Source of the DNA: Rubritepida sp.
GTDB taxonomy: Bacteria > Pseudomonadota > Alphaproteobacteria > Acetobacterales > Acetobacteraceae
Direction of reading: 5' to 3'
DNA length: 10,019 nt
NCBI GenBank assembly: GCA_022843345.1
Contig: JALHNW010000040.1
Location: forward strand, 1-10,019
Shown: positions 64 to 9,639 of the stretch, one piece after another
Numbering within the stretch: position 1 is the stretch's first letter
Layout: every line of letters starts with the position of its first letter
The notes under the pieces: generated by a model
Seen by the model: only the letters and a program-made list of their open reading frames with translations
Database searches by the model: none
What the model was told of the DNA's origin: nothing
Program-made: the position numbers and the translations under genes

Positions 64-933
64 ATGTTCTTCGAGGGATTCACGCTGGACACCCGCGCGG
101 GAACGCGCGTGCGCATCGGCGGTTCCGGCCCGCCGCTGCTGCTGCTGCACGGCAACCCGCAGACCCATGCCATGTGGCACGCCGTGGCCCCGGCGCTGGC
201 GCGGCGCTTCACCGTGGTCTGCCCCGACATCCGCGGCTACGGCCTGTCCGACAAGCCCGCGCCCAGCGCCGACCACGCCCCCTACGCCAAGCGCGAGATG
301 GCGAAGGGCCCGCTGGAACTGATGCGCGGCCTGGGGTTCGGGAAATTCCAGGTGGTGGCGCATGACCGCGGCGCGCGCGTGGCGCACCGCCTGGCACTGG
401 ACCACGCCGACGCCGTGCAGCGCCTGTGCGTGATGGACATCGTCCCCACGCTGCACCACTTCGAGAACACCGACATGTCCTTCGCCATGGGCTACCACCA
501 CTGGTTCTGGCTGGCCCAGCCGCACCCGGTGCCCGAGACCTTCATGGGCCACGACGTGGAATGGTGGTTCGACGCCCAGACCTCGCGCGAGCCCAAGGAC
601 AAAGGCTTCTTCCACCCCGAGGCGCGGGCCGACTACCTGGCGGCGCTGCGCGCGCCCGGCACGCTGCACGGCATCTGTGAGGACTACCGCGCCGCGGCGA
701 CGGTGGACCTGGAACACGACCGCGCCAGCCGCGCGGCGGGGGAGAAGCTGCGCTGCCCGCTGCTGGCGCTGTGGGGCGCGAAGGGGCGGATCGGGCAGTG
801 GTACGCGCCGCTGGAGGTGTGGCGCGCGTACTCGGATGCGGAAGTTTCTGGCCATGCGGTGAACAGCGGGCATTATCTGGCGGAGGAGGCGCCCGCAGAG
901 GTGCTGGCCGCATTGGAGGACTTCCTGGAATGA
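64..933 (+). CDS. Haloacetate (fluoroacetate) dehalogenase-like alpha/beta hydrolase
   Basis: A 289-residue cytoplasmic alpha/beta hydrolase without a signal peptide. The N-terminal half shows the oxyanion-hole motif LLLLHGNPQT (25-34) and the strand/turn VVCPDIRGYG (51-60). The nucleophile elbow AHDRGAR gives Asp101, followed by Arg102 and Arg105. Asp125 in MDIVPT is the likely acid and His270 in NSGHYL the base. The cap carries His146-Trp147 (YHHWFWLAQP) and Tyr208. From my knowledge of Rhodopseudomonas fluoroacetate dehalogenase, the nucleophile, acid, two carboxylate-binding arginines, halide-binding His-Trp-Tyr set and catalytic His all have counterparts at nearly the same spacing. The expected reaction is hydrolytic removal of halide from a haloacetate to give glycolate (EC 3.8.1.3). 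Substrate choice cannot be read from sequence, and epoxide hydrolases are close relatives. GGGGAGG at 51-57, six bases before the ATG, supports the start. The stop overlaps the start of the Bug receptor gene, so the two are probably co-transcribed. Confidence 0.88.
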   Translation: MFFEGFTLDTRAGTRVRIGGSGPPLLLLHGNPQTHAMWHAVAPALARRFTVVCPDIRGYGLSDKPAPSADHAPYAKREMAKGPLELMRGLGFGKFQVVAHDRGARVAHRLALDHADAVQRLCVMDIVPTLHHFENTDMSFAMGYHHWFWLAQPHPVPETFMGHDVEWWFDAQTSREPKDKGFFHPEARADYLAALRAPGTLHGICEDYRAAATVDLEHDRASRAAGEKLRCPLLALWGAKGRIGQWYAPLEVWRAYSDAEVSGHAVNSGHYLAEEAPAEVLAALEDFLE

Positions 934-1892
934 ACCGCCGCACCCTGCTGGCCGCCGCCACGCTGCCCTTCGCCGCCCACGCGCAGCCAGCCTGGCAGCC
1001 GCGCGGCCCCGTCACCGTCATCGTTCCCAACCCGCCGGGCGGCGGCACCGACTTCGCCGCGCGGCTGTTCACCGAGGGGCTGTCCCAGGCGCTCGGCGTG
1101 CCGGTGGTGGTGGACAACCGCGGGGGTGCGAACGGCAACATCGGCATCGGCGCCGCGGTGCGCGCGGCACCCGACGGGCAGACGCTGCTGCTGCAATACA
1201 GCGGCTACCACGCCGGCAACCCGGCGATGATGCGCAACCTGCCCTGGGACCCGCTGCGCGACCTCGTGCCCGTGGGCATGGGCACGCTGGCGCCGCACGG
1301 CATCTTCGTCTCGCCCGCCGTGCCGGCGAACACGCTGGCCGAGTTCATCGCGTGGGCGCGGGAGCGGCCGGGGGCGCTGAACTACGCCTCCGCCGGCATC
1401 GGCTCCATCCAGCACATCGCGGGCGTGCTGTTCGGCCGCGCCATCGGGGTGGAGATGACGCACGTCCCCTACCGGGGCGCCGCGCCGGCCTTGCAGGACG
1501 TGGTGGCCGGGCGCGTCGAGCTGTTCATCACCACGCCGTCCAGCGCCATCGCGCTGGTGCAGGGCGGCCGCGTGAAGGCGCTGGCGATGGCGAGCGCGCG
1601 GCGCTCGCCCGGCCTGCCAGAGGTGCCGACAACGGCCGAGGCGGGGCTGCCTGGCTACACCATGGACGCCTGGTTCGCCTTCTTCGCCCCCGCCGGCATC
1701 CCCGCCGCCGCGCGCGAGCGCCTGAACGCCGAGCTGCGCCGCCTGGCGCAGGACCCCGCCATCCGCGCCCGCGCCGAGGCCGGCGGCGCCACCCTGCAAC
1801 CCATGACCCTGGCCGAACTGGACGCCCTGGCGGAGCGCGAGGTGCGCGAGCTGGGCGCGGTGATCCGCGCCGCCGGCATCACGCTGGAGTGA
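930..1892 (+). CDS. Bug-family (TctC) tripartite tricarboxylate transporter substrate-binding protein
   Basis: A 320-residue periplasmic receptor. The signal peptide has an Arg-Arg pair (MNRRTLL), a short hydrophobic core and a likely cleavage after AHA near residue 18. Family hallmarks are VPNPPGGGTDFAAR (32-45), VVDNRGGANGNIG (60-72), HVPYRGAAPALQDVVAGRVEL with the ligand-loop PYRG (178-198), VPTTAEAGLPGY (232-243) and PAGIPAAARERLNAEL (254-269). Full length for the family. I chose the ATG at 930: it is preceded by GGAGGA at 915-920, overlaps the hydrolase stop as ATGA, and gives a proper signal peptide. A longer in-frame extension upstream reads through the hydrolase and is not protein-like. 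Bug proteins bind carboxylates or other small polar solutes for TctAB permeases, but no tctA or tctB is in the window. Pairing with a dehalogenase-like enzyme suggests, as inference only, a carboxylate or halocarboxylate ligand. Confidence 0.92.
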   Translation: MNRRTLLAAATLPFAAHAQPAWQPRGPVTVIVPNPPGGGTDFAARLFTEGLSQALGVPVVVDNRGGANGNIGIGAAVRAAPDGQTLLLQYSGYHAGNPAMMRNLPWDPLRDLVPVGMGTLAPHGIFVSPAVPANTLAEFIAWARERPGALNYASAGIGSIQHIAGVLFGRAIGVEMTHVPYRGAAPALQDVVAGRVELFITTPSSAIALVQGGRVKALAMASARRSPGLPEVPTTAEAGLPGYTMDAWFAFFAPAGIPAAARERLNAELRRLAQDPAIRARAEAGGATLQPMTLAELDALAEREVRELGAVIRAAGITLE

Positions 1893-2464: not shown

Positions 2465-3745
2465 TTATCGGTACCACAGCGACGGCAGCCACATCACGAC
2501 GCCGGGCACGTAGGTGCACAGCAGCAGCACGCCGACCAGCGGCACCATGAACGGCAGCACCCCCTTGGCCGCATCCTCGAAGGAGATGCCGCCCACGCGG
2601 GCCAGGATGAACACCACGATCCCGACGGGGGGCGTCAGCAGCCCGATGCACAGGTTCAGCACCATGATGAGGCCGAAATGCACCGGGTCCACGCCGATCG
2701 TCTCCATCACCGGCAGCATGATGGGCGTGAGGATGAGGATGGCCGGCAGCGGCTCGATGGCCAGCCCCACGATGAGCAGGAAGATGTTGGCCAGCAGCAG
2801 GATCAGCCATTTCTGCTCGGTGATCGCCAGCACCCAGCCCACCACCTGCTCGCTCGCGCGCGTGGTGGTCAGCATCCAGCCGAACGCCTCGGAGGCGGCG
2901 ACGATCAGCAGGATGGTGGCGGTGATCTCCACCGTCTCGAAGCTTACCTTGGCGATCGCGCGCAGCCCCAGCGTGCGGTAGACGACGACGCCCAGCAGCA
3001 GCGCCCAGGCCACCGCGCAGATCGCGCCCTCGGTGGGCGTGAACAGCCCCGCGCGCATGCCGCCGATGATCAGCACGGGCGTGAGCAGCGGCAGGATGCC
3101 GCGCGCCAGCGTGCGCCCCATCTCGTACAGCCGGAACTGCGCGTCGGCGCCGTAGCCGTGGCGCACGGCATACCAGCGCACCATGCACATCAGGCAGACC
3201 GCCACCAGCAGCCCCGGCACAATGCCGGCGGCGAACAACTGCCCGATGGAGGCGTTGGCCGACACGCCATACACCACCAGCGGCAGGGACGGCGGCAGCA
3301 GCGGCCCCAGCATGGAGCTCGCCGCCGTGATGCCCACCGCGAATTTGGGGTCGTAGCCATGCGCGCGCATCGCCCGCACCTCGATGGTGCCCAGCCCCGC
3401 GGCGTCGCCCACCGCCGTGCCCGACATGCCGGCGAAGACGACGGAGCCCACCACGTTCACCTGGCCCAGCCCGCCGCGCATCCAGCCCACCGCGGCCACC
3501 GCGAAGGCGTAGATGCGCTCGGTGATGCCGGACGAGTTCATCAGCATGCCGGCGAAGATGAAGAAGGGCACGCAGAGCAGCGGAAAGGAATCCACGCCGC
3601 CCACCATGCGGTGCACGATGGCGAGCAGCGGGATGGAGCCGTCCAGCAGCGCGAAGATCACCCCCGCACCGGCGAGTGCGATGGCGACGGGAACGCCGAT
3701 CGCCATCAGCGCCAGGAACCCCAGCAGCAGGATGGCGGCGGTCAT
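2465..3745 (-). CDS. dctM: TRAP transporter large permease subunit (DctM)
   Basis: A 426-residue inner-membrane protein, the usual DctM length, with about a dozen hydrophobic segments. It forms the sodium-coupled transport channel of a TRAP system. Family signatures are FFIFAGMLMNSSGITERI (61-78), FAGMSGTAVGDAAGLGT (104-120), the SMLGPLLPPSLPLVVYG stretch (144-160), GLFTPTEG (233-240), IEPLPAILILTPIMLPV (330-346) and GLLTPPVG (368-375). I start it at the ATG at 3743-3745, which overlaps the dctQ stop as ATGA and has AGGA about nine bases upstream. The open frame extends much further upstream, but that part reads through dctQ and is not protein-like. The first residues MTAAILLLGFLALMAIGVPVA match the normal DctM N-terminus. 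Substrates of the family are mostly organic acids, but the substrate is set by DctP, and no dctP is visible in the window. Confidence 0.95.
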   Translation of the reverse strand: MTAAILLLGFLALMAIGVPVAIALAGAGVIFALLDGSIPLLAIVHRMVGGVDSFPLLCVPFFIFAGMLMNSSGITERIYAFAVAAVGWMRGGLGQVNVVGSVVFAGMSGTAVGDAAGLGTIEVRAMRAHGYDPKFAVGITAASSMLGPLLPPSLPLVVYGVSANASIGQLFAAGIVPGLLVAVCLMCMVRWYAVRHGYGADAQFRLYEMGRTLARGILPLLTPVLIIGGMRAGLFTPTEGAICAVAWALLLGVVVYRTLGLRAIAKVSFETVEITATILLIVAASEAFGWMLTTTRASEQVVGWVLAITEQKWLILLLANIFLLIVGLAIEPLPAILILTPIMLPVMETIGVDPVHFGLIMVLNLCIGLLTPPVGIVVFILARVGGISFEDAAKGVLPFMVPLVGVLLLCTYVPGVVMWLPSLWYR

Positions 3746-4296
3746 GCCAGCACGTCCTGCGCCGCCGGCGCGTCGCCGTGCCGCCAGCGCCGCCACACCC
3801 ACTGCACCTCGCGCCCCAGCATCAGCACGAAGCCCGCGCAGACCGGCCAGTACACCCAGGCCAGCGAGGCATCGAGGCTGTCCATCGGCATCACGCCCAT
3901 GCGGTCGGCCAGGTCGAAGGAGATCCAGGCGCCGAAGGCCCAGAAGCCCAGGCGGATGGCGTCCTGCACCGCCCGCAGCGCGGCGCGCGCGCGCGCGGGC
4001 AGCGCGTGCTCCAGCGCCTCCACGCGGATGTGGGTGCCGCGCCGCACCGCGCCGGCCGCGCCGATGAAGGTCAGCACGACCAGCAGGTAGCGCGCCGCCT
4101 CCTCCGTCCAGGAGATGCTGTCGTTCATCACGTAGCGCGAGAAGAACTGGGTGAAGACCAGCGCGCCGAGCACCCACAGCAGGAGAAGGCCGGCCCATTC
4201 CTCCGGCCCGTGGTTGCGCCAGCGGAAATGCCGCAGGTCGTCGGCGTAGCCGGCCTCCTCGGCCATTCCCACGCCCTCGAACGGCTTCTGCGCCAT
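3742..4296 (-). CDS. dctQ: TRAP transporter small permease subunit (DctQ)
   Basis: A 184-residue inner-membrane protein with four hydrophobic segments (about 34-52, 68-84, 112-130 and 146-162). The family signature SWTEEAARYLL (62-72) is followed by the GAAGAVRRGTHIRVE stretch (79-93), typical of DctQ. It partners DctM in the membrane domain. The ATG at 4296 follows GGGAGG in the run at about 4301-4311 (minus strand), so I prefer it over the internal Met11. That choice gives a roughly 30-residue charged, soluble N-terminal extension, which is slightly long for the family. The gene lies 59 bases after the stop of the metallo-hydrolase gene and overlaps dctM by ATGA, so it is probably co-transcribed with dctM and possibly with the hydrolase. 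An exact TTGACA on the minus strand (4349-4354) lies in the gap, but I see no matching -10. Confidence 0.93.
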   Translation of the reverse strand: MAQKPFEGVGMAEEAGYADDLRHFRWRNHGPEEWAGLLLLWVLGALVFTQFFSRYVMNDSISWTEEAARYLLVVLTFIGAAGAVRRGTHIRVEALEHALPARARAALRAVQDAIRLGFWAFGAWISFDLADRMGVMPMDSLDASLAWVYWPVCAGFVLMLGREVQWVWRRWRHGDAPAAQDVLA

Positions 4297-5339: not shown

Positions 5340-5459
5340 CCGTGTGTCCTCCGGTGTCGTTGCTTGCGCCGAGGCTAGGGCAATCGTTGCGCGCGCATCC
5401 ATCGAAATCGCCACGGCCCCGCTTGCGCCCGGCGCGCCGATGCCGCAGGAATGGCCACA

Positions 5460-5569
5460 GACACATGGGGGCGCGCCCGCCGGCAATGCCGGAGCGGCGC
5501 TGAGAGGCGGGGGCCAGCCCCGCGACCCTGGAACCTGATCCGGTTCGTACCGGCGGAGGGAATGGTGTC
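5460..5569 (+). promoter_or_regulatory. TPP riboswitch aptamer (THI element)
   Basis: The conserved core is present. CTGAGA lies at 5500-5505 (pyrimidine-binding arm), GAACCTGATC at 5531-5540, and GTACCGGCGGAGGGAA (5547-5562) closes the pyrophosphate-binding arm. Helices I can pair by eye: P1, GACAC 5460-5464 with GTGTC 5565-5569; P3, CCGGC 5480-5484 with GCCGG 5488-5492; a variable GCGGGG/CCCCGC stem at 5507-5523; P4, CCCT 5526-5529 with AGGG 5557-5560; and P5, CCGG 5540-5543 with CCGG 5550-5553. It binds thiamine pyrophosphate in the nascent mRNA. The downstream gene on this strand is the solute-binding protein at 5618. Bases 5340-5459, between here and the divergent metallo-hydrolase start, hold no promoter I can call with confidence. 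Confidence 0.95.
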
Positions 5570-5587
5570 GGGGCACGCGCGCGCGCC

Positions 5588-5615
5588 TTCCCTCCGGACT
5601 GCATCCTGGGAGGGA
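5588..5615 (+). promoter_or_regulatory. Riboswitch expression platform: RBS-sequestering switch
   Basis: The anti-Shine-Dalgarno segment TCCCTCC (5589-5595) is perfectly complementary to GGAGGGA (5609-5615), the ribosome binding site just before the ATG at 5618. The same segment, extended to TTCCCTCCG (5588-5596), is perfectly complementary to CGGAGGGAA (5554-5562) in the 3' arm of the aptamer. The two pairings exclude each other. With TPP bound, the aptamer holds 5554-5562, so 5589-5595 is free to mask the RBS. Without TPP, 5588-5596 can pair back onto the aptamer strand and expose the RBS. The complementarity is seen directly; the OFF-with-TPP logic is inferred from how TPP riboswitches usually work. 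Confidence 0.75.
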
Positions 5616-5617
5616 TC

Positions 5618-7192
5618 ATGCTCAACCGCCGCCACCTGCTCGCCGCGCCCCTGGCCGTGCCGCTCGCCGCCAGCGCGCAGACGGCCCGCGCCCGCACCCT
5701 GCGCTTCATGCCCCAGGCGGCGCTGGCGGTGCTGGACCCGGTGTTCAACCCCTCCACCATCATCACCACCCACGGCTTCTGCGTGTGGGACACGCTGTAC
5801 GGTGCCGACCGCGCCATGCGCCCGCATCCGCAGATGGCGCGCGGCCACGCCGTCAGCGCGGACGGCCTCGAATGGCGCATCACCCTGCGCGAGGGCCTGC
5901 GCTTCCATGATGGCGAACCGGTGCGCGGGCGGGACTGCGTGGCCTCCATCCGCCGCTGGGCGCAGCGCGACAATTTCGGCGGCGCCCTGATGCGCGTCGT
6001 GGCGGAACTCGACGCGCCCGACGACGCCACGATCCGCTTCCGCCTCACCCGCCCATTCCCGGCCCTGCCCGACGCGCTGGCGAAACCCGGCAGCAGCCCC
6101 TGCTTCATGATGCCCGAGCGCTTCGCCACCCTGCCCGCCGACCGTCCGCTGGGCGTGGACGCGATGATCGGCTCCGGCCCCTGGCGCTTCCTGCCCGGCG
6201 ACTGGGTGCAGGGCGCCCGCGCCGCCTACGCCCGCAACGAGCACTACGTGCCGCGCGACGAGCCGGCCGAGGCGATGACCGGCGGCAAGCGCGTGCATTT
6301 CGACCGCCTGGAGCTCACCTGGATCCCCGATGGCGGCACCGCGGCCGCCGCACTCCGCACCGGCGAGGTGGACTGGGTGGAATACCCCCTGCCCGACCTG
6401 GTGCCGGTGCTGGAGCGCGACCGCGGCGTCCGCACCCAGGTCTACGACCCCAACGGCTTCCTGGGCTTCCTGCGCTTCAACCACCTGCACGCCCCGTTCA
6501 ACGACGTGCGCGTGCGCCGCGCCATCCGCGACCTGCTGGTGCAGCCGGACTTCATGCAGGCCGTGGCCCTGCCGGGCGACTGGCAGGAATGCCACTCGAC
6601 CTTCGCCTGCTCCCTGCCCGGCGCGCTGGAATTCCCGCCCGCCCCCCGCGGCCCGGCGGCGGCCGAGCGCGCCCGGAGCGCGCTGCGCGACGCCGGCTAC
6701 AACGGCGAGCCGATCATCCACATCAACCCCAGCGACTTCCCGGCGGTGACGCAGCAGGGCCGCGTCACGGTGGCCGCCATGCGCGCCATCGGGCTGAACA
6801 TGCAGCCGTTGGAAAGCGACTGGGCGACGGTCCTCGCCCGCCGCGCCAACCGCGCGGCACCCGCGCAGGGCGGCTGGCACCTGCACAACACCAACGCGCC
6901 GGCAGCGACCATCGCCAACCCCGCGGTGAGCTTCGTCATCCGCATGAACGGCAACGCCGCCTGGCCCGGCTGGCCGGAGGATCCGGCCGTGGAAGCGGAG
7001 GTGACGGCCTGGTTGGAAGCCCCAGATTCCGAGGCGCAGGCCGCCGCCATGCGCCGGTTGCAGGAGAAGGCGTGGGACAGCGTGCCCATCGCCCCCACCG
7101 GCCTGTTCCGCCTGCGCACAGCCTTCCGCGCCGACCTGTCGGGGGTGCTGCAGGCGCCGAGCCCGATGCTGTGGAACCTGCGCCGGGGTTAG
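5618..7192 (+). CDS. TPP-riboswitch-controlled ABC transporter substrate-binding protein, family 5 (peptide/nickel type)
   Basis: A 524-residue periplasmic binding protein, normal for SBP family 5 (DppA/OppA/NikA). The signal peptide MLNRRHLLAAPLAVPLAASA carries an Arg-Arg pair and ends near ASA (18-20). Family features include DTLYG (58-62), ADGLEWRITLREGLRFHDGEP (81-101), GSGPWRF (185-191), the LRTGEVDWVEY segment (246-256) and FNHLHAPFNDVRVRRAI (287-303). The C-terminal lobe continues to NLRRG at the end. GGGAGGGA ends two bases before the ATG, a short spacing. The gene is single: the next gene is convergent and begins two bases after its stop, and no permease or ATPase gene is in the window. 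Family members bind peptides, nickel, opines and other small ligands. The TPP riboswitch upstream suggests that the ligand is thiamine, a precursor or a thiamine-related compound, but the sequence alone cannot show this. I know of no thiamine receptor in this family. Confidence 0.93.
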   Translation: MLNRRHLLAAPLAVPLAASAQTARARTLRFMPQAALAVLDPVFNPSTIITTHGFCVWDTLYGADRAMRPHPQMARGHAVSADGLEWRITLREGLRFHDGEPVRGRDCVASIRRWAQRDNFGGALMRVVAELDAPDDATIRFRLTRPFPALPDALAKPGSSPCFMMPERFATLPADRPLGVDAMIGSGPWRFLPGDWVQGARAAYARNEHYVPRDEPAEAMTGGKRVHFDRLELTWIPDGGTAAAALRTGEVDWVEYPLPDLVPVLERDRGVRTQVYDPNGFLGFLRFNHLHAPFNDVRVRRAIRDLLVQPDFMQAVALPGDWQECHSTFACSLPGALEFPPAPRGPAAAERARSALRDAGYNGEPIIHINPSDFPAVTQQGRVTVAAMRAIGLNMQPLESDWATVLARRANRAAPAQGGWHLHNTNAPAATIANPAVSFVIRMNGNAAWPGWPEDPAVEAEVTAWLEAPDSEAQAAAMRRLQEKAWDSVPIAPTGLFRLRTAFRADLSGVLQAPSPMLWNLRRG

Positions 7193-8187: not shown

Positions 8188-8262
8188 GCGGGCGTAGTTC
8201 AGAGGTAGAACGTCAGCTTCCCAAGCTGAATGTCGGGGGTTCGATTCCCCCCGCCCGCTCCA
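8188..8262 (+). tRNA. tRNA-Gly (anticodon CCC)
   Basis: A complete 75-base cloverleaf with encoded CCA. The acceptor GCGGGCG (8188-8194) pairs with CGCCCGC (8252-8258), and the discriminator base is T8259. The D stem is GTTC/GAAC (8197-8200 with 8208-8211). The anticodon stem TCAGC/GCTGA (8213-8217 with 8225-8229) carries loop TTCCCAA, so the anticodon CCC is at 8220-8222 and reads GGG. The T arm is GGGGG/CCCCC around TTCGATT (8235-8251). All stems are fully paired, so the gene looks functional. Confidence 0.97.
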
Positions 8263-8307
8263 TCGCCGCGCCGCAACATCCCGCCCGCATCCCGCGTTCC
8301 CCCCACG

Positions 8308-9639
8308 ATGAACGCCGCCACGCCCCCCGGCCCCCAGATGTGGGGCGGCCCCGAATGCAGCATGGTGCGCGTCGGCCAGGACATGCGCGACCAGTTCGCC
8401 GACACCGGCCACACCCTGCGCGCCGTGCGCGACCTCGAGGCCTGCGCCGCCCTGGGCCTGCGCGTCCTGCGCTACCCCGTCTCGTGGGAGCGCGTCTCGC
8501 CCGACCACCCGGACGAGTGCGACTGGGCCTGGCACGACGCGCAGCTCGACGCCATGCGCCGCATGGGCATCCGCCCCATCTTGGGCCTCGTCCATCACGG
8601 CGGCGGCCCGCGCCGCACCAGCCTGGCCGACCCCCACTTCGCCACCAGGCTGGCCGAGTTCGCCGGTCAGGTCGCCCGCCGCTACCCCTGGGTGACGGAC
8701 TGGACGCCGGTGAACGAGCCGGTGACGACCGCCCGCTTCTCCGGCCTCTACGGCCACTGGTACCCGCACCGCGAGGACGAGCGCGCCTTCCTGCGCATCC
8801 TCGCCAACGAATGCCGCGCCGTGGTCCTGTCCATGCAGGCCATCCGGGCCGAGATCCCCGCCGCGCGCCTCGTGCAGACGGAGGATTTGGGCAAGACCTT
8901 CTCCCGCCGCGGCATGCGCGCCCAGGCCGCCTACGACAACGCCCGCCGCTGGCTGGGCTTCGACCTGCTGCTGGGCCGCATCGCCCCGCGCTCCTTCTGG
9001 CACGCGCGCATGGTGGCGGCCGGCGTGCCGCCCGCCTGGCTGGCGGAGTTCCGCCGCGCCCCCATCGGCCCGATGATGCTGGGCTTCAACCACTACGTCA
9101 CCAGCGAGCGCTTCCTGGACGACCGCCTGGCGCTGTACCCGCGCAACCTGCACGGCGGGAACGGCCGCGTGCGCTACGTGGACACGGAGGCGCTGCGCGT
9201 GCCCATGCCCGCCGGCAGCACCGGCTGGCTGCCCCGCATGCGCGAGGCGATGGACCGCTACCCCGGCCTGCCGGCGGCGGTGACGGAGGTCCACCTGGGC
9301 TGCGAGGACCCCGCCCACCAGATCCGCTGGCTGGCCGAGTGCTGGGAGGCCGCGCGCACCCTGCACGCCCAGGGCTACCCGGTGGAGGGCGTCACCGCCT
9401 GGTCGCTGTTCGGCGCGGTGGACTGGTGCTCCCTGCTGACGGAGCGGCGCGGCCGCTACGAGCCGGGGGTGTTCGACGTCTCCTCCGGCACGCCGCGCCC
9501 CACGCCGCTGGCCGCCGCGGTCGCTGCCTGCGCGAGGGGCGGCGCCTTCGAGCACGAGGCGCTGTCCGCCCCCGGCTGGTGGCGCCACCCGGGGCGGCTG
9601 CACCCCGGCCTGGTCATTCCCGCCGCCGCACCACGGTGA
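8308..9639 (+). CDS. Family 1 glycosyl hydrolase-like protein
   Basis: A 443-residue cytoplasmic TIM-barrel protein related to GH1 beta-glycosidases. The N-terminal MWGGPECSMVRVG (11-23) and LGLRVLRYPVSWERVSP (49-65) resemble the first barrel strands. GLVHHGGGP (93-101) matches the conserved His loop. WTPVNEP (132-138) holds the predicted acid/base Glu137. VTEVHLG (325-331) holds the predicted nucleophile Glu327, in place of the classical TENG. GVTAWSLFGAVDW (361-373) parallels the late GH1 WSL motif. Both catalytic acids are thus present, but the nucleophile region and length differ from true GH1 enzymes. I recall similar domains fused to an RmlD-type sugar-nucleotide reductase; here the protein ends after GWWRHPGRL with no such domain. 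The ATG at 8308 lies 45 bases after the tRNA and has no Shine-Dalgarno; Met11 is an alternative. The substrate is unknown. The gene overlaps the convergent Usp gene by 26 bases. Confidence 0.82.
   Translation: MNAATPPGPQMWGGPECSMVRVGQDMRDQFADTGHTLRAVRDLEACAALGLRVLRYPVSWERVSPDHPDECDWAWHDAQLDAMRRMGIRPILGLVHHGGGPRRTSLADPHFATRLAEFAGQVARRYPWVTDWTPVNEPVTTARFSGLYGHWYPHREDERAFLRILANECRAVVLSMQAIRAEIPAARLVQTEDLGKTFSRRGMRAQAAYDNARRWLGFDLLLGRIAPRSFWHARMVAAGVPPAWLAEFRRAPIGPMMLGFNHYVTSERFLDDRLALYPRNLHGGNGRVRYVDTEALRVPMPAGSTGWLPRMREAMDRYPGLPAAVTEVHLGCEDPAHQIRWLAECWEAARTLHAQGYPVEGVTAWSLFGAVDWCSLLTERRGRYEPGVFDVSSGTPRPTPLAAAVAACARGGAFEHEALSAPGWWRHPGRLHPGLVIPAAAPR

Follow-up and report, generated by a model that had tools for sequence, protein, structure and literature searches.

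Many bacteria rely on other organisms for thiamine precursors, which are in short supply. The DNA analyzed here (hereafter the window), a stretch of 10,019 nucleotides from Rubritepida sp. (assembly GCA_022843345.1, contig JALHNW010000040.1), contains a gene for a family 5 ABC solute-binding protein behind a predicted thiamine pyrophosphate (TPP) riboswitch. The sections of earlier comparative work that we consulted name thiB, thiXYZ, thiV and omr as TPP-linked importers (PMC2211319), and thiT, cytX, ykoF and thiPerm as further thiamine transport genes (PMC10881298). A TPP-controlled family 5 receptor was named nowhere in the literature that we searched, which was covered mostly at the level of titles and abstracts and included few subscription papers. 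To our knowledge, there is no earlier case of this receptor family in TPP-controlled vitamin uptake; such uptake is known, and the family 5 receptor in that role is the new part.

A TPP aptamer upstream of the receptor gene

We searched the window using Infernal and found a predicted TPP riboswitch aptamer (RF00059) at positions 5457–5578 of the forward strand, with a match to the full model (positions 1–105; 46.9 bits, E = 2.1e-8). The ATG of the receptor gene (5618–7192, + strand, 524 aa) lies 39 nt past the end of this match; the arrangement described in the first-pass annotation, a TPP aptamer directly upstream of a single family 5 solute-binding protein gene, was accordingly confirmed. 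The Rfam search that it proposed for this region gave a significant full-length match, although the score is below the Rfam cut-off of 54.3 bits, and the element is consequently absent from a scan at the gathering threshold, which shows only a tRNA. Since the last 12 positions of the RF00059 model are 3′ of helix P1, the aptamer core ends at approximately position 5566. The element is the sole TPP match at E ≤ 0.001 in its own assembly (E = 4.4e-8; 2.5 Mb in 465 contigs, 84% complete).

The CUGAGA and GAACCUGAUCCGG...CCGGCG stretches of the aptamer core are intact; their invariance was observed in an alignment, and we take them to be the motifs that characterize a TPP riboswitch. This alignment comprised the window aptamer and 30 of the 39 mapped orthologue-linked aptamers (31 sequences, that of locus L092 being short at its 3′ end), and its helices correspond to P2 to P5 of the known fold. 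Double changes that preserve the pair were found for 5 of the 19 predicted pairs. P1 was absent from the consensus structure predicted from the 31 sequences, and two of its five pairs are non-standard in the window aptamer, as aligned by Infernal. The P3 loop of the window aptamer contains a 13-base insert; its nearest relatives, L092 and L093, are without this insert, yet score 43.4 and 43.5 bits, respectively.

In known TPP riboswitches, TPP represses expression, and on this basis we assume repression for the receptor gene as well. A Shine–Dalgarno-like GGGAGGGA (5608–5615, + strand), recognized by eye, precedes the ATG at 5618, and a CU-rich linker (5588–5595, + strand) is a candidate anti-Shine–Dalgarno sequence by complementarity (P = 0.047 for the window). 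The minimum-energy fold of positions 5457–5625 pairs 5590–5595 with 5609–5614 of the Shine–Dalgarno region, and nine bases in the 3′ part of the aptamer (5554–5562, + strand) are complementary to the linker at 5588–5596, which would allow an alternative pairing. The fold of the 5′ UTR was no more stable than those of shuffled sequences (z = –1.02, 27 of 200 as good). When complementarity was compared with that of shuffled linkers, 6 of 40 loci gave P < 0.05 (median 0.40). The anti-Shine–Dalgarno pairing is therefore suggestive in the window and weak over the set of loci, and translational control is weakly supported by these sequence comparisons. Neither a sigma-70-like promoter nor a terminator was found by pattern.

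Conservation of the TPP element in receptor orthologues

We scanned genome contigs using peptide patterns of the receptor and obtained 47 loci, comprising 43 orthologues (L092–L134, 58–85% identical) and four relatives (L135–L138, 42–46%). TPP elements were searched for in 43 genomes (the 42 orthologue genomes and that of L137), with L111 scanned as a locus alone, and their positions on the loci were derived from contig coordinates and strand. L121 was excluded from the assessable orthologues, as its gene start is 49 nt from the contig end. The first-pass annotation had pointed to orthologues without an upstream TPP element as evidence that would speak against its proposal; on the contrary, an element was found with 39 of the 42 assessable orthologues, ending 44–205 nt before the matched coding stretch, and the genome of L137 (G102) contains a single TPP element, located directly before a 76% identical orthologue (L211). 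The scores of 37 of the 40 orthologue-linked elements were above the Rfam cut-off (exceptions: L092, L093 and L096), and the core motifs confirmed the placement of 38 of 39 elements, L122 having a variant core. Using the scan at the Rfam cut-off, no element was detected in three orthologues, L111 (Dankookia), L118 and L120 (both Roseicella), and a permissive scan of L118 likewise gave no TPP match. In both Roseicella genomes, a TPP element immediately precedes ThiC.

It is hardly credible that the match in the window arose by chance or is the non-functional remnant of an aptamer: its score below the cut-off and its two non-standard P1 pairs would fit such an origin, but the low E value, the intact core, the presence of the element at the same position in the orthologues (36 of 39 above the cut-off) and the pair-preserving double changes all argue against it, and this conservation together with the double changes led us to reject a chance match.

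A reverse survey started from the TPP elements of same-genus and same-family genomes, for which 60 of 61 TPP places were examined (G034:C42 was left out). The receptor was directly downstream at 19 of the 60 places (17 of 20 same-genus genomes, as well as G023 and G025), and the remaining matchable places were mainly before ThiC or ThiG. As genomes G060–G102 partly duplicate the assemblies G001–G035, the two surveys are not independent.

Restriction of TPP control to one clade

In a tree of 84 rows, the orthologues formed a clade of 45 rows with an SH-aLRT support of 100, and its stem is 0.7 changes per site long. We obtained this tree using a quick method, with long-branch warnings outside this clade. 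The TPP label required 4 changes on the tree, compared with a mean of 28.2 for shuffled labels, and none of 500 shuffles was as low. This pattern would fit one gain and a few losses, although it is no proof of a single gain.

We further searched the proteins of 385 sampled genomes across the class, scoring at most three candidates per genome. Matches at E ≤ 1e-80 were found in 63 genomes (the own genome included), and the 29 loci then scanned for TPP elements are a sample of these. The data did not support TPP control throughout the subfamily, since a match over the cut-off was found at none of these 29 wider homologues (L160–L188, 36–45% identity) and at none of five paralogue loci (L135, L136, L138, L201 and L202); the scans of both groups, as well as those of L111 and L120, were performed at the Rfam cut-off, which the window element itself fails, so that weak elements may be missed. 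At the protein level, 40 positions were conserved across 33 orthologue rows but differed for the most part in 29 further rows; they include T47, T51, C55, W189, E399 and N426, at which other residues prevail in the 29 rows. Such clade-specific positions are as expected if the ligand had changed.

The receptor protein and its genomic neighborhood

The receptor matches SBP_bac_5 (PF00496) at 193.1 bits, against a cut-off of 32.4, and also has the receptor fold of the family; its N-terminus resembles an export signal by eye, and is a putative one. A structure model of high confidence was obtained (pLDDT 92.0, pTM 0.89). The closest relative in the PDB is 8vdx from Bordetella bronchiseptica (36–37% identical), the listing of which names no ligand. 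In the PDB listings, the ligands of family 5 receptors with solved structures include peptides, opines, metal complexes, sialic acid and other small molecules, and no thiamine-like ligand appears among them. PF00496 was the sole Pfam match at E ≤ 0.001, and the NMT1 domain of ThiY-type receptors (PF09084) was not found, which places the receptor outside that family even though it may function in a similar way to ThiY; similarly, the nine NCBIfam matches at E ≤ 0.001 included no thiB model. Scores for peptide receptors were below the equivalog cut-offs (GsiB, 79.7 versus 594 bits; DppA, 28.2 versus 1005; OppA, 24.9 versus 947). In contrast to DppA, OppA, GsiB and NikA of the same family, the receptor is under predicted TPP control and has clade-specific residues. 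Its nearest relatives by protein are found in Roseococcus, Sabulicella and other Acetobacteraceae/Roseomonadaceae.

In the window, the receptor gene is preceded by a divergent gene of the metallo-beta-lactamase fold (PF00753) and followed by a convergent methyltransferase-like gene. In agreement with the first-pass annotation, which had reported neither a permease nor an ATPase nearby, a Pfam scan detected none among the window proteins scanned. An all-against-all comparison of ORFs, by which the neighbors elsewhere were compared instead of by Pfam, revealed no conserved downstream partner across 48 loci; apart from ORFs overlapping the receptor and the upstream cluster c06, the commonest neighbor cluster (c08) occurred at 13 of the 48 loci, mostly on the opposite strand. 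An operon with a permease is thus unsupported. Elsewhere in the own assembly, contig C16 (L201) contains three tandem family 5 paralogues (42–45% identity) together with a Dpp/Opp-type permease and two ATPases. By inference only, this permease/ATPase set is a candidate partner transporter for the receptor; the tandem receptors with one such set suggest that one transporter may serve several receptors here.

Other transport genes are present in the window. At 64–1889 (+ strand), an alpha/beta hydrolase gene, for which the best NCBIfam models are haloalkane dehalogenases with scores far below the cut-off, is followed by the gene for a TctC-type receptor (PF03401), a second receptor for which no permease of its own kind was seen in the window. 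At 2468–4296 (– strand), the TRAP membrane genes DctM (PF06808, 425.3 bits) and DctQ (PF04290) were found, and no DctP receptor was seen in the window. A tRNA-Gly (CCC) at 8188–8262 (+ strand) overlaps the 5′ part of an ORF for a GH1-like protein (8230–9636), the true start of which is probably further downstream.

Thiamine pathway genes in receptor-holding genomes

Of the 43 receptor-holding genomes surveyed, 20 gave no ThiC match, and all 20 contain a TPP-linked receptor. In 19 of these 20 genomes no second TPP element was found, one being present in G063, in searches whose stricter filters lose some weak matches. Among the 23 genomes with ThiC, 20 contain a TPP-linked receptor, two lack it and one could not be judged. 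A second set of genomes, overlapping in part with the first, includes five near-complete (98–100%) genomes without ThiC (G002, G003, G009, G010 and G015), in which ThiD, ThiE, ThiG and ThiL all scored over their cut-offs. Less complete genomes without ThiC were more variable: all four proteins were present in G014, no ThiE match was found in G013, where ThiL was in two pieces below the cut-off, and no strong ThiG match was found in G018. The own assembly of the window (84% complete) gave no ThiD match. ThiL was matched in all of 26 genomes, in 25 of them over the cut-off, and thiamine pyrophosphokinase (PF04263) in none of the 26, while the same search matched 7 of 14 control genomes.

For TenA (TIGR04306, cut-off 130), the match in G003 scored 132.5 bits and that in the own assembly 125.1 bits, just under the cut-off. 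PF03070 was matched in all 18 genomes searched; three proteins were checked singly, and of two copies in the own assembly one proved to be PqqC, which weakens TenA as a proof of pyrimidine salvage.

Judging from gene content, the five near-complete genomes without ThiC should lack only the pyrimidine half (4-amino-5-hydroxymethyl-2-methylpyrimidine, HMP) of thiamine. As ThiG is kept and with it thiazole synthesis, the missing part is the pyrimidine; with thiazole made and the joining enzymes kept, import of a pyrimidine would be needed unless another HMP synthase exists.

The ligand of the receptor

We lean towards the reading that the receptor is repressed by TPP and captures HMP or a related pyrimidine. 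An HMP-type ligand is favored because genomes without ThiC keep ThiD, ThiE, ThiG and ThiL, and because the receptor is often their sole TPP-linked gene. The periplasmic receptor would capture the pyrimidine half of thiamine, that is, HMP or its aminomethyl- or formylaminomethyl-pyrimidine salvage forms, and would deliver it to an ABC permease of the Dpp/Opp type whose genes are located elsewhere. In the cell, ThiD and ThiE would couple the pyrimidine to thiazole from the ThiG-dependent route, with TPP then made by ThiL. When plentiful, TPP would bind the aptamer in the 5′ UTR and less receptor would be produced, with the CU-rich linker perhaps covering the Shine–Dalgarno sequence once TPP is bound. 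The presence of the TPP-linked receptor in 20 of the 23 genomes with ThiC is a point against this reading, and indicates that the receptor is not tied to pyrimidine auxotrophy alone. Further points against it are that none of the listed ligands of solved family 5 receptors resembles thiamine, that the own assembly, G013 and G018 each gave no match or no strong match for one of the retained pathway proteins, that the anti-Shine–Dalgarno pairing is weak over the set of loci, and that the receptor has no linked permease.

A receptor for intact thiamine, TMP or TPP, comparable in this to ThiB, would suit the same observation; we consider this reading less likely, but the strongest competitor. TPP elements also precede thiamine importers such as thiB (PMC2211319, in the part consulted), and the presence of ThiL in all 26 genomes, none of which gave a pyrophosphokinase match, would make phosphorylated forms usable. 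Imported TPP could then be used directly and TMP via ThiL, while thiamine would first be cleaved by TenA or phosphorylated by an undetected kinase, a scheme to which we give only limited credence; ThiD, ThiE and ThiG, which the five near-complete genomes without ThiC keep, would be needless if TPP or TMP were imported.

We consider it rather improbable that the receptor serves for a peptide or some other nutrient, with TPP control reflecting a link to TPP-dependent metabolism, or for a thiamine derivative other than the pyrimidine, such as a thiazole-type compound. The fold and the nearest characterized families, which are peptide, opine and nickel receptors, point in this direction, as do the nearest solved relative, for which no ligand is listed, and the location of the own-assembly paralogues beside a Dpp-like permease and ATPases; however, TPP control is confined, in our sample, to one long-stemmed clade set apart by 40 positions, and 19 of the 20 genomes without ThiC gave no further TPP element.

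The first-pass annotation had reasoned that TPP control implies a ligand related to thiamine. Conservation of the element in orthologues and the pattern of pathway genes both support this part of the proposal, whereas the ligand itself, its transport and the response to TPP remain predictions. In this context, the candidate ligands are reduced to compounds related to thiamine, the pyrimidine moiety being the most likely.

Comparison with known thiamine uptake systems

The closest parallel to the pyrimidine reading is found in SAR11, an HMP auxotroph with a likely HMP importer, ThiV, behind a TPP riboswitch (PMC11452348; PMC10881298). As far as the sections consulted describe it, in both cases alphaproteobacteria without ThiC but with other thiamine genes contain a transport gene linked to a TPP element, and TenA is near ThiV in one SAR11 cluster (PMC11452348; PMC10881298). 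ThiV is a sodium:solute symporter, whereas the protein studied here is a family 5 ABC receptor without a linked permease. According to the portions available of the respective papers, the ThiXYZ (ThiY, NMT1/THI5-like) and ThiBPQ (ThiB) systems likewise have ABC receptors for pyrimidine or thiamine behind TPP elements (PMC2211319; PMC10881298). Unlike ThiY and ThiB, the present receptor belongs to PF00496, matches no thiB model and has no conserved adjoining ATPase or permease. From the reading of translations, a TPP element precedes genes for an ATPase, a permease and an NMT1-like receptor in G031, and genes for an ATPase and a permease in G035. At locus L071 of G021, a genome with no ThiC match, ORFs resembling a TonB receptor and an NMT1-like receptor were recognized by eye behind a TPP element, possibly another thiamine uptake arrangement in the same family.

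In Clostridioides difficile, an ABC-type operon without significant homology to known thiamine transporters is located behind a predicted TPP riboswitch (PMC11477304, as described in the part consulted). This system is a whole operon in a Firmicute, and it was compared by description only, the family of its receptor being unstated in that part of the source (PMC11477304); by analogy, it may be a relative in kind of the TPP-linked receptor.

Implications for thiamine auxotrophy

The fuller picture, which we put forward tentatively and as a nearly even question, is that the receptor represents a new family 5 class for the pyrimidine of thiamine. It would have been recruited a single time, through gain of a TPP riboswitch at the root of a Roseomonadaceae clade, and would allow several lineages to dispense with ThiC, HMP-type pyrimidines being scavenged via a shared Dpp-like permease. 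A recent survey, in the sections that we consulted, scored thiamine auxotrophs by known importers, including thiB, thiT, thiY, thiV, cytX and others (PMC10881298). If the proposal is true, a TPP-controlled family 5 receptor would escape such importer lists, and would likely be annotated as a peptide receptor. Cultured Roseococcus and Rubritepida would then offer a direct test of both pyrimidine auxotrophy and the receptor, and the case would show that a protein from a broad receptor family can acquire a vitamin-related role through the gain of a riboswitch.
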